In this document: piece after piece, positions 3,756-60,767 of the stretch
Layout of the letters: each line of letters starts with the position of its first letter
Position numbering within the stretch: the first letter of the stretch is position 1
DNA from: Lentibacillus sp. Marseille-P4043
Lineage (GTDB): Bacteria; Bacillota; Bacilli; Bacillales; Amphibacillaceae
NCBI RefSeq assembly: GCF_900258515.1
Contig: NZ_LT984884.1
Location: 2,267,353 to 2,331,352 of the forward strand
DNA length: 64,000 bases
Direction: 5' to 3'
The notes under the pieces: model-generated
The model's input: only the letters and a program-made list of their open reading frames with translations
Database searches by the model: none
What the model was told of the DNA's origin: nothing
Made by a program: the position numbers and the translations under genes

Positions 3756-4922
3756 TTATCTATGCTTTTGTTGATTTCTCGTATATTTCATCGCACTAAG
3801 CAGAAACTTCGCATTTTTTTCCGTGATTTCTGCTTTTCTCGGTATTTCCGGTACAATACTTTTGCTGTCGTGCCAAGTTTTTGGTAGTGTTACAGGTGCT
3901 TGCGCTTGCCATTTGGATAGCCATGTAGTTGGAATGTAGTCTATTTGTGGCTTACCTGTTTTCATGATATTCCAAATCTGCGCCCATGCCCGTGGGACAA
4001 CACGCCAAATATCATAGCCGCCACCACCTAACGCAATCCACTTTCCACCACAGTACTCGTGGGCCAATTTATGTGCCAACATTGGTATCTTTTCATAAAT
4101 AGCCATTGTCCCGCAAAGATGTGTCAATGGATCATAAACATGGGCATCCGCACCATTTTGTGTTACGATCACATCTGGCTTAAAATAGTCGCAGATTTCC
4201 CTGAAAGCGGATTCATAGACTTGTAAAAATGACTCATCCTCCGTGAAGGCATCGATAGGTATGTTAAAGGTATATCCATGTCCTGCTTTTATGCCGCGTT
4301 CATTAACATTACCTGTGCCGGGGAAAAGATATCGTCCTGTTTCATGGATGGAGAATGTGCAAACGTTTGGATCTTCGTAAAATGCCCATTGTACCCCATC
4401 CCCGTGATGTGCATCTGTATCAACGTATAAAATTTTTGCATCATATTTTTGTTGAATGTACTTCATTGCAACTGCACCATCATTGTAAATGCAGAATCCA
4501 GATGCTTTTCGTTTAAATCCGTGATGAAGCCCGCCACCTAAGTTAAGTGCATGAAGGGATCTACCCTCTAGTACGGCATCAACAGCATTTAACGTGCCAC
4601 CAACAAGGAAACTGGATGCTTCATGCATATTGGTAAACATTGGTGTATCCTCGGTGCCAAGCCCAAATTCCAGACCTTCATCTTCGGTTAGTTTTCCAAT
4701 ACTAGCCTTTTTTACAGCCTGAATAAATGCTTTGTCATGGAACAATGCTAGTTCATCATCTGTTGCTTCTCGTGGCTTGATTATATCGTTTTGATCAAGT
4801 GTGTTCGCTTCCTCTAGTAATTCTTTTGTCAATACCACTCGCTTTTGGTTGAAAGGATGATCCGAATGAAAGTGATAATCTAAATAGGCATCAGAAAAAA
4901 CAAACGAGGACTTGCATGTCAT
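3756..4922 (-). CDS. acuC: AcuC, protein deacetylase of the histone deacetylase family
   Basis: A zinc-dependent deacetylase that, in B. subtilis, reactivates acetyl-CoA synthetase by removing the acetyl group added by AcuA. The 388 residues match the family (387). HDAC-fold motifs are visible: ALNLGGGLHHGF, YVDTDAHHGDGVQWAFYEDP (His pair and metal Asp), FSIHETGRYLFPGTG and ALGGGGYDIW. The ATG at 4922 is chosen because it forms an ATGA overlap with the acuB stop and has GGGGA 9 bp upstream; an in-frame ATG 30 bp earlier would lie deep inside acuB. It is the last gene of acuABC. Confidence 0.95.
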   Translation of the reverse strand: MTCKSSFVFSDAYLDYHFHSDHPFNQKRVVLTKELLEEANTLDQNDIIKPREATDDELALFHDKAFIQAVKKASIGKLTEDEGLEFGLGTEDTPMFTNMHEASSFLVGGTLNAVDAVLEGRSLHALNLGGGLHHGFKRKASGFCIYNDGAVAMKYIQQKYDAKILYVDTDAHHGDGVQWAFYEDPNVCTFSIHETGRYLFPGTGNVNERGIKAGHGYTFNIPIDAFTEDESFLQVYESAFREICDYFKPDVIVTQNGADAHVYDPLTHLCGTMAIYEKIPMLAHKLAHEYCGGKWIALGGGGYDIWRVVPRAWAQIWNIMKTGKPQIDYIPTTWLSKWQAQAPVTLPKTWHDSKSIVPEIPRKAEITEKNAKFLLSAMKYTRNQQKHR

Positions 4923-9348: not shown

Positions 9349-9477
9349 GCATAAGTGCGATTTCTGTAGTATAGGAAATAGTATAGTTTTTAAGCCATTA
9401 TGCAGTCTAAAGGATTTTACTGTTGCATTTTATCTGAATGTATGGTAACAATTAATAATAATCTTATATAAAATTGG

Positions 9478-9740
9478 CTTTGAAGGATCGAAGTAGATTT
9501 GCATTTCCCTGTTTAAGAGAGCTGGCGGCGGGTGGAAGCTGGTATATATTTGCAAACGAATTACAATCTGGAGCTTTTTCTTTTTTCATGATAGACAAGA
9601 CAAGTTTAGGACTCTAACTGTTGTCTTCCGAAGAAAACGGTGTGATCATCGTTAACAACCCCAGAGTGGCATATTTATGCAACAAGGGTGGTACCGCGAA
9701 TAAAATCTCGTCCCTTTTAACTTAAGGGATGAGGTTTTTT
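9478..9740 (+). promoter_or_regulatory. T-box riboswitch of tyrS (tyrosine-specific)
   Basis: The 554-bp gap between the PBP gene and tyrS holds a T-box leader. Visible elements: Stem I with the AGAGAGCTGG...GGGTGG region near 9516-9540; a specifier loop with codon TAC (9562-9564) for tRNA-Tyr; the T-box sequence AAGGGTGGTACCGCG (9684-9698); and a terminator stem CTCGTCCCTT (9707-9716) with AAGGGATGAG (9724-9733) followed by six T. Uncharged tRNA-Tyr pairing with the GGTA part of the T-box would stabilise the antiterminator and allow tyrS transcription. A weak -10-like TATAAA lies at 9467-9472. The rest of the gap shows no other feature. Confidence 0.95.
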
Positions 9741-9867: not shown

Positions 9868-11139
9868 ATGAATATTTTACAGGATCTGAAACATCGTGGA
9901 TTGGTTCATCAAACAACTGATAATGATGGTTTGGAAGAATACTTACAAAATAATCAGGTTACATTATATGCAGGTTTTGATCCAACGGCAGATAGTTTGC
10001 ACATTGGCCATTTAGTTCCTGTATTAATGCTAAAAAGATTTCAAAAAGCCGGTCATAAACCAATCGCTTTGATTGGCGGTGGAACGGGAATGATTGGTGA
10101 TCCGAGTGGTCGATCAACTGAACGTTCGTTAAATGATGCTGCTGTTGTCAAAGGATTCAGCGAGAAAATTAAACAGCAATTAGCGCATATACTTGATTTT
10201 GATCATGGAGAGAATGCTGCGGTTGCCCGCAATAATCATGATTGGTTGGCAAGTATGACGATTATCGACTTTTTACGTGATGCCGGTAAGCATTTCGGGA
10301 TTAATTACATGCTTGCTAAAGAATCGGTTTCAGCACGAATCGAACAAGGTATCTCTTTTACAGAATTCAGTTACATGATTTTACAATCACTTGATTTTCT
10401 CAAACTGTATGAACAAGAAAATTGTACATTGCAAATCGGTGGTAGTGATCAATGGGGTAATATTACTGCTGGAATGGAACTGATTCGCCGGACAAATGCA
10501 CAACCGGATGAAGAAATTAAAGTATACGGATTAACTGTTCCACTTATTACCAAAGCAGACGGTACGAAATTCGGCAAAACTGCTGGCGGGGCTATTTGGT
10601 TGGATCCAGAAAAAACGACCCCATATGAATTTTACCAGTTCTGGATCAATACAGATGATCGTGATGTCATCAAGTTTTTGCATTACTTTACGTTTTTGGA
10701 ACAAGATGTATTGGGGCAATTGCAAGAGGAAGTAGAAAATCATCCGGAAAAACGGCTGGCACAAAAGCGATTGGCAGAGGAAGTCACTCGAATGGTTCAT
10801 AGTCAAGAAGCACTTGATCAGGCGCAAAAAATATCTGCTTCGTTATTCAGTGGTGATGTCAAGCAACTGTCTGCAGATGATATTGAGCAAGGATTCAAAG
10901 ATGTTCCAACGTATAAAATAGGAAAAGAGGAAATTGGACTAATTGACTTGCTGGTGAATGCTTCCATTTCCTCATCTAAACGGCAGGCAAGAGAAGATAT
11001 CAAGAACGGTGCGATTTACATCAACGGTGAACGTAATCAAGATTTACAATACACTGTCACTTCTGATGACCGAATTGAGGATAAATTTACGGTTATCCGA
11101 AGAGGGAAGAAGAAGTACTTTTTAATTCGTTATGCATAA
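9868..11139 (+). CDS. tyrS: Tyrosyl-tRNA synthetase
   Basis: Charges tRNA-Tyr with tyrosine in the cytoplasm; class I synthetase. The 423 residues equal the usual bacterial TyrS length (422 in B. subtilis). Visible motifs: HIGH signature at residues 45-48 (DSLHIGHLVP), GGGTGMIGDPSGRSTER, IGGSDQWGNITAG, and the KMSKS-like loop KFGKTAGG. The C-terminal S4-like RNA-binding domain is at about 355-420 (SSSKRQAREDIKNGAIYINGE). Its control by a TAC-specifier T-box leader confirms the amino acid. A GGAGTG ribosome site precedes the ATG. Confidence 0.97.
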   Translation: MNILQDLKHRGLVHQTTDNDGLEEYLQNNQVTLYAGFDPTADSLHIGHLVPVLMLKRFQKAGHKPIALIGGGTGMIGDPSGRSTERSLNDAAVVKGFSEKIKQQLAHILDFDHGENAAVARNNHDWLASMTIIDFLRDAGKHFGINYMLAKESVSARIEQGISFTEFSYMILQSLDFLKLYEQENCTLQIGGSDQWGNITAGMELIRRTNAQPDEEIKVYGLTVPLITKADGTKFGKTAGGAIWLDPEKTTPYEFYQFWINTDDRDVIKFLHYFTFLEQDVLGQLQEEVENHPEKRLAQKRLAEEVTRMVHSQEALDQAQKISASLFSGDVKQLSADDIEQGFKDVPTYKIGKEEIGLIDLLVNASISSSKRQAREDIKNGAIYINGERNQDLQYTVTSDDRIEDKFTVIRRGKKKYFLIRYA

Positions 11140-11140
11140 A

Positions 11141-11181
11141 AATAAAACGGGTATCCGGAGTAACGGGATACCCGTTTTATT
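11141..11181 (+). terminator. Strong terminator after tyrS
   Basis: A 16-bp perfect stem, 11141-11156 with 11166-11181, GC-rich centre (CGGGTATCC) and A/T flanks, directly after the tyrS stop. Confidence 0.94.
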
Positions 11182-11215
11182 TTACTTTAACATCAAACGA
11201 TAGGTGAATTGACTA

Positions 11216-11565
11216 TTATCATTTCGTAATGTTTGTTGCTTTTTAAATTTCGTAGTTGATAGAAAAAGCGACGTAATTAGGAAATTGCTCTCCCGCCGCA
11301 GTCTTGATCGGGTTGATGTTTCCACGCACCGGTCGATGTTCCCACGCTCGGGCTGATGTTTCCGCGATTCCGGTCGATGTTCTCGCACTCGGGCTGATGT
11401 TCTCGTATTCGGGTTGATGTTCCCGCGCTCGGGCTGATGTTTCCAGAGATCAGAGTCAGCCACTCAACCCACATTAGAGTGAGAGAAAGCGTCACAAAAA
11501 GAATTATCACTACATCGCATTTTATATCTTTTGTGTCAAAAACCACCATCTATTAGAAAACAGCT
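11216..11565 (+). mobile_element. Interspersed element copy 1 (ends A left, B right; tandem-repeat interior)
   Basis: The left 85 bp match, with few changes, the left end of copy 3 (60177 on) and the reverse complement of the right end of copy 2. Shared landmarks are GTTTGTTGCTT, ATTTCGTAG, GATA, GCGAC, AGGAAATTGCTCTCCCGCCG. The right end (reverse strand AGCTGTTTTCTAATAGAT and AGATATAAAATGCGAT) matches the B ends of copies 2 and 3, with about 30 bp missing near the tip. Between the ends, this copy carries a 20-bp tandem repeat in place of the GC-rich arms. No protein gene is credible inside it. It lies between the tyrS and rpsD terminators. The left boundary is approximate, and no clear target duplication was found for this copy. 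Confidence 0.7.
11302..11446. repeat. Degenerate 20-bp tandem repeat, about seven units
   Basis: GATGTT recurs at 11315, 11335, 11355, 11376, 11396, 11416 and 11436, i.e. spacings of 20, 20, 21, 20, 20 and 20 bp. A typical unit is GGGCTGATGTTCCCGCGCTC. Units differ mainly at CTG/TCG/TTG and in the CCGCG segment. Because 20 is not a multiple of 3, no single protein repeat is preserved. The array is the interior of interspersed element copy 1. Confidence 0.9.
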
Positions 11566-11571
11566 TAATAC

Positions 11572-11605
11572 AAAAAGCCTCTAGAAAGATTTCTAGAGGC
11601 TTTTT
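11572..11605. terminator. Terminator of rpsD
   Basis: AAAAAGCCTCTAGAAA (11572-11587) pairs with 11590-11605, giving a long symmetrical stem just downstream of the rpsD stop on the minus strand, flanked by A/T runs. Confidence 0.9.
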
Positions 11606-11618
11606 GATGGTATTCAGC

Positions 11619-12221
11619 TTAACGAGAGTAGAACTCGACGATAAGTGCTTCGTTAATTTCAGCTGGAAGCTCAGAACGCTCAGGGTAGCGAGTATAAGTA
11701 CCTTCTAATTTATCTGCATCAAATGAAACATATTCAGGTACGAAATTATTCACTTCAATAGCTTCTTTAACGATATCTAGGTTACGTGAACGCTCACGTA
11801 GACCGATAACTTGACCTGGTTTTAGACGATATGATGGGATGTCCACACGTTTACCATCTACAGTCACATGACCATGGTTTACCAACTGACGTGCTTGTCG
11901 ACGTGTACGAGCAAGACCAAAACGATAAACAAGGTTATCCAAACGTGATTCAAGTAAAATCATGAAGTTTTCACCATGGATACCTTTCATTTTACCAGCT
12001 TCATTAAACGTGTTTTTGTATTGACGTTCGTTTAAACCGTACATGAAGCGAAGTTTTTGTTTTTCTTGTTGTTGCAAGCCATATTCAGAAATTTTCTTGC
12101 GTTGGTTTGGGCCATGTTGCCCGGGAGCGTAAGGACGTTTATCTAATTCCTTACCAGTTCCAGTTAATGAAATGCCAAGACGACGGGATTTCTTCCATAC
12201 GGATCCAGTATATCGTGCCAT
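11619..12221 (-). CDS. rpsD: 30S ribosomal protein S4
   Basis: Primary 16S rRNA-binding protein that nucleates 30S assembly. The 200 residues match B. subtilis S4. N-terminus [26 protein letters not shown], then the S4 RNA-binding domain at about 92-155 ([32 protein letters not shown]), and the C-terminal [18 protein letters not shown], all highly conserved. It stands alone, as in Bacillus, with its own promoter, a long leader suited to S4 autoregulation, and a terminator. A strong GGAGGA ribosome site precedes the ATG. Confidence 0.98.
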
Positions 12222-17790: not shown

Positions 17791-18354
17791 GGCTGTTTTC
17801 CAAAAGATTGGGACTGCGATCACTCGCCTCATCGAAAACATTTGTTGTTTGTTACACATTAGATATAAACTGCGACATAGATTGAGATGACGGACTGCCG
17901 TTCCGGAAATACACTTCGCTTTCCGCGGGCGGCTGCTGAGCCTCCTCGTGCTACGCACTGCGGGGTCTCACCTAGGCCTCTCTTCCCGCAGGAGTCTCCG
18001 CGTATTTCCTCCACTGGTATTACATTTACTACCAGTAGCGGTAAGTGTTCTATAATTATTCCTACCACTTCACTAGTCCGGGTGAGTGGAGGGTGGTGAC
18101 TCCTGCGGGAACAATGGTTTTCGGTGGGGCGAGTTAGCGCAGCCCCAGCACGTGTCCGAAGACCCCGCAGGAAGTGGTTTTCTTCCGAGGAGGCTGAGGC
18201 CGTGCCCATGGAAAGCGGAGTATTCTGACGAAGCGAATCCAAGCACTCTTATACCATTGGAACGGGAAGAAAGTGTCACCAAAGAGAACTTCATTACGTC
18301 GCAGTTTATATCAACTACGAAATTTAAAAAGCAACAAACATTATGAAAAGAGCC
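17791..18354 (-). mobile_element. Interspersed element copy 2 (ends B left, A right; GC-rich inverted arms)
   Basis: A 564-bp element bounded by GGCTGTTTTC (17791-17800) and GAAAAGAGCC (18345-18354), which are 9/10 inverted repeats. Flanks TAGTATAT and TAGTAAGT match at 6 of 8 and may be a decayed target duplication. Subterminally, both ends carry GATATAAACTGCGAC facing inward. The interior holds two GC-rich arms in inverted orientation: about 17898-18022 (CACTTCGCTTTCCGCGGGC ... GCGGGGTCTCACC ... CCGCAGGAGTC) and about 18099-18235. No gene is credible; the reading frames present are by-products of GC-rich repeat DNA. Right end lies 31 bp before nifZ. Confidence 0.8.
17898..18235. repeat. GC-rich inverted arms inside element copy 2
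   Basis: The left arm (about 17898-18022) and right arm (about 18099-18235) share, in opposite orientation, TTTCC(G/A)CGGGC, GCCTCCTCG, TGCGGGGTCT and CCGCAGGAGTC. The RNA from this region could fold into a long hairpin. Confidence 0.75.
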
Positions 18355-18385
18355 TAGTAAGTATAACAAGTTAGGAGTCAAATGA

Positions 18386-41811: not shown

Positions 41812-41932
41812 AGGACTAAAGTAGGGCGCGATGATAGACTATCTTTAATCTGGGCACTTTGGATAGTCAGGAGTGAGTAGTGCAACCGACTAATTAAGTT
41901 CTCATAGCTTTCTATCATTATAAAAAGGTGGG
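41812..41932 (+). promoter_or_regulatory. Structured untranslated leader of pilA, unassigned
   Basis: A closing stem ATGATAGA (41831-41838) with TCTATCAT (41911-41918) encloses two hairpins: CTATC (41839-41843) with GATAG (41862-41866), and TCAGG (41867-41871) with CCGA (41886-41889) by way of a bulged A. The result would be a three-way junction ending just before the ribosome site AGGTGGGG (41925-41932). Hallmark sequences of known c-di-GMP riboswitches are absent, so no ligand is proposed. Confidence 0.5.
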
Positions 41933-60176: not shown

Positions 60177-60767
60177 GGTTTTTTTCGTAACGTTTGTTGC
60201 TTATTAATTTCGTAGTGATAGAAAATGCGACACAGCTAGGAAATTGCTCTCCCGCCGTTCCGGAAATACACTTCGCTTTCCGCGGGCGGCTGGAGAGCCT
60301 CCTCGTGCTAACGCACTGCGGGGTCTCACCTAGGCCTTTCCTCCCGCTGGAGTCTACGTGTATTTCCTCCACTGGTGTCGTGATTTAATAAACTCATTAC
60401 ATTCAGCTATTGCTTAAGTGAATTTCTGTTCAAGGGAGGAAAAGTCCGTGTAACGTTAGAATCCATGGCTTTTCCCCTGTCGATATCAGAGCACCACACT
60501 ACCAGCGGAGGCAGAATACGTAGACTCCTGCGGGAACAGCACGAGTCTGAAGACCCCGCAGGAAGTGGTTTTCTTCCGAGGAGGCTGAAGCCGTGCCCGC
60601 GGAAAGCGAAGTATTCTGCCGGAGCGGAATTCAGGCATTCCATCATCAATGTTACAAAAGGGAATTTTCACTGTGTCGCATTCTATATCGCATTTTATAT
60701 CTAATGTGTAACAAACAACAAATGATTTCGATGGGGCAATCGCAGTCCCAATCTTTTAGAAATAGCC
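60177..60767 (+). mobile_element. Interspersed element copy 3 (ends A left, B right; GC-rich inverted arms)
   Basis: A 591-bp element bounded by GGTTTTTTTC (60177-60186) and AGAAATAGCC (60758-60767). Flanking octamers TTTTTTAA (60169-60176) and TCTTTTAA (60768-60775) agree at 7 of 8 and may be the target duplication. The left end matches copy 1 and the reverse of the right end of copy 2; the right end (CACATTAGATATAAA on the reverse strand) matches the left of copy 2 for about 90 bp. GC-rich arms at about 60255-60385 and 60521-60627 match those of copy 2 in the same orientation, although the ends are swapped. No credible gene inside. Ends 27 bp before fxsA. Confidence 0.8.
60255..60627. repeat. 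GC-rich inverted arms inside element copy 3
   Basis: Left arm CACTTCGCTTTCCGCGGGC ... GCGGGGTCTCACC and right arm GACTCCTGCGGGAACAGC ... GACCCCGCAGGAAG ... CCGAGGAGGCTGAAG are inverted relatives and close copies of the arms in element copy 2. Very similar GC-rich blocks are, from memory, common between genes in Virgibacillus- and Oceanobacillus-like genomes. Confidence 0.75.

Follow-up and report, generated by a model that had tools for sequence, protein, structure and literature searches.

A probable array-bearing member of a MITE-type family with exchangeable interiors in a Lentibacillus chromosome

How can the same two ends come to enclose unrelated DNA? This question is raised by three elements in one 64,000-nucleotide stretch of the Lentibacillus sp. 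Marseille-P4043 chromosome (the window; Table 1). The ends of copy 1 recur in copies 2 and 3, as an earlier note on this DNA had pointed out: positions 11212-11277 are 88% complementary to 18293-18358 in copy 2, 11257-11298 are 88% identical to 60216-60257 in copy 3, and 11510-11546 are 84% identical to 60683-60719, again in copy 3. The interior of copy 1 is a tandem array of period 20 (6.7 copies over 11308-11441/11445 by TRF) and not a pair of GC-rich arms. The likeness to copy 3 on the left stops after CTCTCCCGCCG (11288-11298), where copy 3 goes on with TTCCGGAAATAC. We consider it very probable that copy 1 is a gene-less member of a MITE family, served by a transposase acting in trans, with one end of type LE (left in copy 1), one of type RE (right in copy 1) and an interior that is exchangeable between a hairpin core and a satellite array.

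Copy 1 lies in a 479-bp spacer of a Bacillaceae chromosome, between convergent genes that we take, from their sequence, to be tyrS and rpsD. Among named tyrS loci, those closest to the left neighbour are from Virgibacillus and Lentibacillus, the first six at 80-84% amino-acid identity. On both sides the element is flanked by hairpins followed by T runs that look, by eye, like terminators (about 11147-11185 and 11569-11606). A T-box leader at 9471-9718, 5' of tyrS, and a c-di-GMP-II riboswitch at 41815-41899 were also identified in the window (Rfam). The outermost left terminus of copy 1, GACTATTATC, is degenerate relative to GGCTCTTTTC (3 mismatches in 10), and no 8-bp duplication is recognizable around the element (GGTGAATT / TAATACAA, 1/8). 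Its left junction is composite: the first part is also found in GC-core copy 3, and the TCTTGA end is common to other array elements.

Table 1. Positions in the window of the three elements, the parts of copy 1 and the genes beside it
Feature	Position	Strand	Description
Copy 1, element	11211..11565	+	355 bp, LE>array>RE
Copy 1, LE end	11211..11277	+	inner part TTCGTAATGTTTGTTGC...TTTCGTAGTTGATA...GCGACGTAA
Copy 1, left junction	about 11278..11307	+	GGAAATTGCTCTCCCGCCG then CAGTCTTGA
Copy 1, array	11308..11445	+	seven ~20-bp units, core TCGGGYYGATGTT
Copy 1, right junction	about 11446..11506	+	...CCACTCAACCCACATTAGAGTGAGAGAAAGCGTCACAAAAAGAATTATCAC, common to most array elements
Copy 1, RE end	11507..11565	+	short form; optional ~34-bp segment GGGACTGCGATTACTCGCCCC... 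absent
Copy 2, GC-core element	17791..18354	-	564 bp, duplication 6/8 (TAGTATAT / TAGTAAGT)
Copy 3, GC-core element	60177..60767	+	591 bp, duplication 7/8 (TTTTTTAA / TCTTTTAA)
tyrS, left neighbour	9868..11139	+	related loci at 65-84% identity; T-box upstream
rpsD, convergent right neighbour	11619..12221	-	gene name taken from its sequence

End pairs, target duplications and the mobilizing enzyme

The 85-bp left end has at least 40 matches in its own genome (40 of 134 candidates scored), down to E=2.6e-11, and the right end of copy 3 has at least 40 as well (40 of 113 candidates scored). A 44-bp end pattern gave 12 matches against none for its reversed control, and iterated nhmmer models found 98 left-model matches in 64 merged regions (265,738 bp). 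Mobile ends should recur together, as the earlier note had reasoned, and they do so at 51 places in the sampled genome: inverted pairs numbered 41 at first (16 of the 98 end matches being unpaired in that set), 50 with more regions and 51 with the last regions added, all counts referring to regions chosen by end and array matches and not to a whole-genome census.

LE and RE are alike as inverted repeats only in an outer stretch, GGCT[CG]TTTTC, and an inner one, ATATAAAATGCGACGTAA; their middle parts differ, which makes the terminal inverted repeat imperfect. RE occurs with and without a segment of ~34 bp. When the 51 pairs were classified by LE and RE profiles, built from individual ends of the family, 50 were LE/RE, one had an unclassified end and none was LE/LE or RE/RE; the pairing model favours LE, making LE/LE pairs the easiest and RE/RE pairs the hardest to detect (the latter possibly under-detected), and the 50 LE/RE pairs, being copies related by descent, are not independent.

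Among the 50 pairs of the second set, both termini could be called in 34, those of the other 16 being uncallable. These 34 elements measure 185-813 bp, so that on length alone a full transposase inside them is unlikely. Their 8-bp flanks match at 7/8 or better in 14 cases, nine of them perfect, at 6/8 in two and at less in 18. Where both termini lie within 2 mismatches (n=22), 11 pairs reach at least 7/8, compared with 0.69 on average and never more than 4 in 2000 shuffles of the right flank. The duplications, among them TTATGTAA, TATAATAA and TTTTAATA, are AT-rich. Six array elements have called termini: 418966-419370 (8/8, its left terminus with 3 mismatches) and 380188-380532 (7/8) are duplicated, and the other four stand at 5/8 or less. 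By its end pairs and 8-bp duplications, the family is a non-autonomous MITE-type transposon. Movement is read from these two features, which show it for the family as a whole; for copy 1 it follows from membership only. A transposase supplied in trans would recognize an end of each type and insert the segment between them at AT-rich sites, cutting the target with a stagger of 8 bp.

The ends are also found outside this genome. At E<=1e-3 they occur in 8 of 41 genomes, its own included, and in that search the left end had no match in the congeners G001 and G002. A stricter end pattern (<=2 mismatches), which missed every own-genome copy (0 matches there), gave 22 matches in 14 of 159 genomes of the bacterial family against 0 for the control. 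The order end, core, end was recognized by eye in three relatives' loci (L142, L148, L156), and a further locus (L277) has a perfect duplication, its partner end having been chosen partly by that duplication. In the Virgibacillus indicus copy (L150), a segment like the ~34-bp one of RE appears, by eye, inside LE.

No autonomous element with LE/RE ends was found by the searches made, which covered two transposase domains (PF01610 and PF12762) in the own genome and the open frames at the 22 end-pattern loci of the 159 genomes, and the full-length transposase copy with the same ends that the earlier note had advised seeking did not come to light. Ten frames taken from nine of these 22 loci (L270-L291) begin with 60 residues unlike transposases by eye, which, given the strict pattern, is a weak negative. 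Plasmids gave 129 records with partial matches to the ends (best E 0.06, none convincing), and viral contigs gave 0 matches. An end-like motif ~640 bp from an ISL3 reading frame (L212) lies inside another reading frame and was taken as chance. The IS1595 domain PF12762 is absent from the own genome and present in only one of 11 end-bearing genomes, and this family was set aside as mobilizer. The ISL3 domain PF01610 is likewise absent from the own genome and is found in 0 of 9 end-bearing genomes, some of them with one end match only, compared with 27 of 51 others (60 tested; Fisher p 0.003), and on these grounds ISL3 was rejected as the present mobilizer. A past role is a separate matter: the ends may have begun as ISL3-type ends (GGCTCT..., 8-bp AT-rich duplication), once mobilized by such an enzyme. 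At 8 of 30 ISL3 loci of the bacterial family, termini start with GG[CT]TCT (e.g. GGCTCTATAATATTTGTTGGGG / GGTTCTACGTCAAATGTTGGGG) and the duplications are mostly AT-rich, the terminus finder having demanded an exact 8-bp repeat; in a table of PMC4133298, one ISL3 element is entered with 8 bp, and LE, which starts GGCTCTTTTCGTAATGTTTGTTGC, agrees with ISL3 in its first bases and in duplication length. The likeness to LE is, however, short and loose, and RE fits worse; together with the distribution of PF01610, this leaves an ISL3 origin conceivable but doubtful.

Arrays outside the elements

The 20-bp array is by no means confined to the elements. The sampled own genome contains 52 array loci, 12 with both ends, six with one and 34 with none; six loci found later, all without ends, bring the free arrays to 40, and these counts are lower bounds, as candidates were scored in part (40/80, 40/73 and 40/86). 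Free arrays have more units than ended ones (median 25 vs 13.5, p 0.008). The unit core, G, A, T then T, T, is nearly invariant in free arrays (715-721 of 722 units), a figure to which a search pattern favouring this core may contribute. Examples of free arrays are 1289255-1290163 and 3632823-3633625, and 11 free loci are crowded between 1188806 and 1351820, at about 1.19-1.35 Mb.

Free arrays are oriented with respect to replication. The gene dnaA lies at 853856-854341, and the GC skew of the sampled regions flips sign near 0.8 and 2.8 Mb. Thirty-seven of the 40 free arrays read TCGGGYYGATGTT on the + strand in the left replichore and on the - strand in the right (p 2e-8), a result that is robust to terminus positions from 2.4 to 3.2 Mb (37-38/40). 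The pattern was first noticed in the initial array set, which is therefore no test of it; among the free arrays found afterwards, 10 of 11 agree (p 0.012). Counted by 60-kb clusters, agreement is 13/14 (p 0.002). Ended arrays follow the rule less closely, at 12/18 with copy 1 among the six dissenters (Fisher p 0.02 against free arrays). Crude gene calls place 11 free arrays between convergent genes, and by a hand count 10 of these follow the replichore; gene direction does not fully explain the polarity.

The congener G002 has about 21 array places, of which 20 were examined and 19 hold at least 3 units (regions including L361-L375 and L377-L379). By local GC skew, 17 of these 19 arrays agree with the replichore rule, in the same sign as in the own genome (p 7e-4), several of them being short (3-5 units) and neighbouring ones not independent. 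None of the 19 regions contains an end match. The congener G001 has no match to the 20-bp unit. Other arrays of ~20 bp lie 3' of tyrS in V. indicus (L066) and L. persicus (L065), with units like GACCGGATGAATCGTG... and GGAAATATGTTCCGGAGAGT, and 400 kb of V. indicus (G020) held no other 20-bp array of comparable unit.

Are the free arrays worn-down array elements that have lost their ends, the element being the source of all arrays? One-ended arrays do occur (6 of the 52 loci), an excerpt of PMC4596501 describes partial or missing leaders and tails in the BrickBuilt element, and one free array, 3407690, has an LE-consensus score of 20, where shuffled sequences reach 17 at most. This account is nevertheless unlikely: 32 of the 33 free arrays scored (out of 34) stand at <=14, where the shuffled 95% quantile is 13, compared with 25-48 for 16 of 18 ended arrays; G002 has 19 arrays in regions free of end matches and no match to the left end; and free arrays are the more strictly oriented. 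We favour the opposite direction, in which the array of the elements would have been captured from a satellite that occurs in the genus free of these ends. As a tentative proposal, which we put forward as possible and no more, the arrays may be a replication-polarized satellite: long free arrays would persist or work in one fork orientation only, through a directional protein on GATGTT-core units or through expansion or survival on one strand, and the MITE, having captured the satellite, would carry it to new sites in either orientation. If so, the genus would offer a natural experiment on orientation-dependent array growth. Should the polarity hold, the growth or retention of bacterial minisatellites would be tied to the direction of replication, a link that could be probed with the dozens of arrays present in nature, of which a transposon has moved some into either orientation.

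Interiors between one pair of ends

By simple scores, the 51 pairs enclose a GC-rich hairpin core in 27 cases, a 20-bp array in 11 and other DNA in 13. Each of the two named interiors lies both ways round: LE>array>RE five times and RE>array>LE six times, LE>GC>RE 16 times and RE>GC>LE 11 times, the quasi-palindromic core being the weaker evidence of orientation. The array must have been turned round at least once, and the sample has no LE/LE or RE/RE survivor, which suggests that the transposase may require both end types. The family shows two unrelated interiors being moved by the same unlike pair of ends, so that recognition of the ends is separable from the cargo in a bacterial mini-transposon found in nature, whose interiors lie both ways round while its ends, in this sample, are never alike.

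Folding does not unite the interiors. As single-stranded DNA, copy 3 (60184-60755) folds far better than its shuffles (z -10.2), whereas copy 1 does not, either as DNA (z -0.04) or as RNA (z +0.98), nor does its array as RNA (z +0.60); a hairpin as a requirement of every interior was discarded on these values. The GC core of copy 3 (about 60270-60636) also matches seven Bacillales plasmids (H21-H27), from Radiobacillus, Priestia, Niallia, Bacillus badius and Planococcus, and is, on these matches, widespread in the order.

Alignment of the 18 ended arrays shows that most share ...CTATAGAATTGCTCTCCGCCGGAATCTTGATCGGG before the array and TTCAACCACTCAACCCACATTAGAGTGAGAGAAAGCGTCAC... after it. The exceptions are 380301, 1879178 and 2765103 on the left and 523107, 1329630, 1879178, 2765103 and 3711607 on the right; 1169553 has no end on its left side. 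In 380301, the 71 bp left of the array are 96% identical to the non-array element 3550241, and 69 bp of this side are also 96% identical to the GC-core element 2260456; the left junctions of 1879178 and 2765103 are more distantly like those of core elements 2991000 and 2285143 (76-87%). At least one array element bears a core-element junction, as exchange predicts. In the 199-bp element 2791886-2792084, the right-hand junction is accompanied by one degenerate unit at most, as judged by eye. With inverted end pairs, 8-bp duplications, two kinds of interior and a chimeric junction, the reading of this DNA in the earlier note as modular, non-autonomous and mobile has held.

Could the 20-bp arrays instead have arisen or inserted independently at many element copies, so that array elements were never transposed as units? 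Arrays are abundant outside the elements (the 40 free ones) and could recombine into them, and three ended arrays have left junctions like those of non-array elements. We regard this as very improbable, since in most array elements the junctions to the left and right of the array are shared, and one of them has a perfect duplication and another one of 7/8. On the favoured reading, a MITE family with exchangeable interiors, the array module probably had a single entry, after which transposition spread it and its number of units changed; interiors would likely be exchanged by recombination or replication template switching in the inner ~20 bp of the ends, ATATAAAATGCGACGTAA, and in the shared junctions.

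The spacers of relatives bear on copy 1 itself. The gene rpsD lies beside tyrS in 33 of 80 relatives, the other 47 having no rpsD within the DNA examined, and these tyrS-rpsD spacers vary in length and content. An end-model search of the 80 tyrS loci and 23 others matched a single tyrS locus, that of O. salinisoli (L136), which is not among the 33 and has no rpsD that could be found. There, what seems to be an element of the same end type lies 3' of tyrS (about 4333-4702, far end by eye); it is apparently separate from copy 1. The lack of ends in the relatives' tyrS-rpsD spacers speaks against the ends being parts of a longer conserved intergenic sequence, which the earlier note had named as evidence against its reading, but a precise empty site was not obtained because those spacers are too diverged. 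A reading of the common sequences as regulatory DNA between genes, conserved and not mobile, is exceedingly improbable: the three window copies do all lie between genes (by eye), but the family has target duplications, relatives' tyrS-rpsD spacers vary in both length and content, and a single one of the 80 tyrS loci has an end match.

Comparison with known systems

In the open-licence literature, the top-ranked matches included no paper whose title or abstract start concerns either these Bacillaceae elements or 20-bp arrays oriented by replichore, and the excerpts of PMC9208149 and PMC8024623 have nothing bearing on them. Relative to the literature searched, we did not find described a switch of cargo within one end pair, an interior lying both ways round between unlike ends, or polar free arrays; the polarity of the arrays is the most novel part of the finding. 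The architecture as such has precedents, contrary to the supposition of the earlier note that no described family shares it: both BrickBuilt (PMC4596501) and BOX (PMC3049150) have fixed ends around a tandem array.

Two further groups are more loosely comparable, as far as the partial accounts of them extend. Non-autonomous mosaic elements with Tn3-type ends, thought to be mobilized in trans, are alike in their non-autonomy and mosaicism and differ from the LE/RE family in their ~38-bp ends, 5-6-bp duplications and usually single copy. The Bacillus stem-loop repeats Bant-1, bcr1, Bhal-1 and Bhal-2 are also interspersed in Bacillaceae; they measure 72-167 bp and, in the part of their description drawn on here (PMC2267715), by which alone we set them apart, have no architecture of ends plus cargo.

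In BOX elements of streptococci, boxA-(boxB)n-boxC, modular ends flank a variable tandem array in a MITE-like unit with terminal inverted repeats and target duplication, and in S. suis the same boxB lies between the alternative end modules boxE and boxF (PMC3049150, in excerpt). In that description boxB stays the same between changing end modules, whereas in the LE/RE family it is the interior that changes, between constant ends, a comparison of architecture only. BrickBuilt, a MITE of Porphyromonas gingivalis, consists of a leader and a tail with short inverted ends around a 23-nt minisatellite that has no spacers and varies in copy number; it has 19 intergenic copies, some without leader and/or tail (PMC4596501, likewise in excerpt). 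According to the excerpt, a leader-to-tail form lacking the repeat does not exist, whereas the ends described here also hold an unrelated hairpin core. The terminal inverted repeats of BrickBuilt match IS5-family elements and its duplications differ in length, in contrast to the 8 bp found here, and its GAG(A/C)CC-type termini and 23-nt repeat do not match the GGCT[CG]TTTTC ends and 20-bp unit (PMC4596501). In this chromosome, unlike BrickBuilt, interiors occur both ways round, and free arrays are more numerous than ended ones and oriented by replichore.
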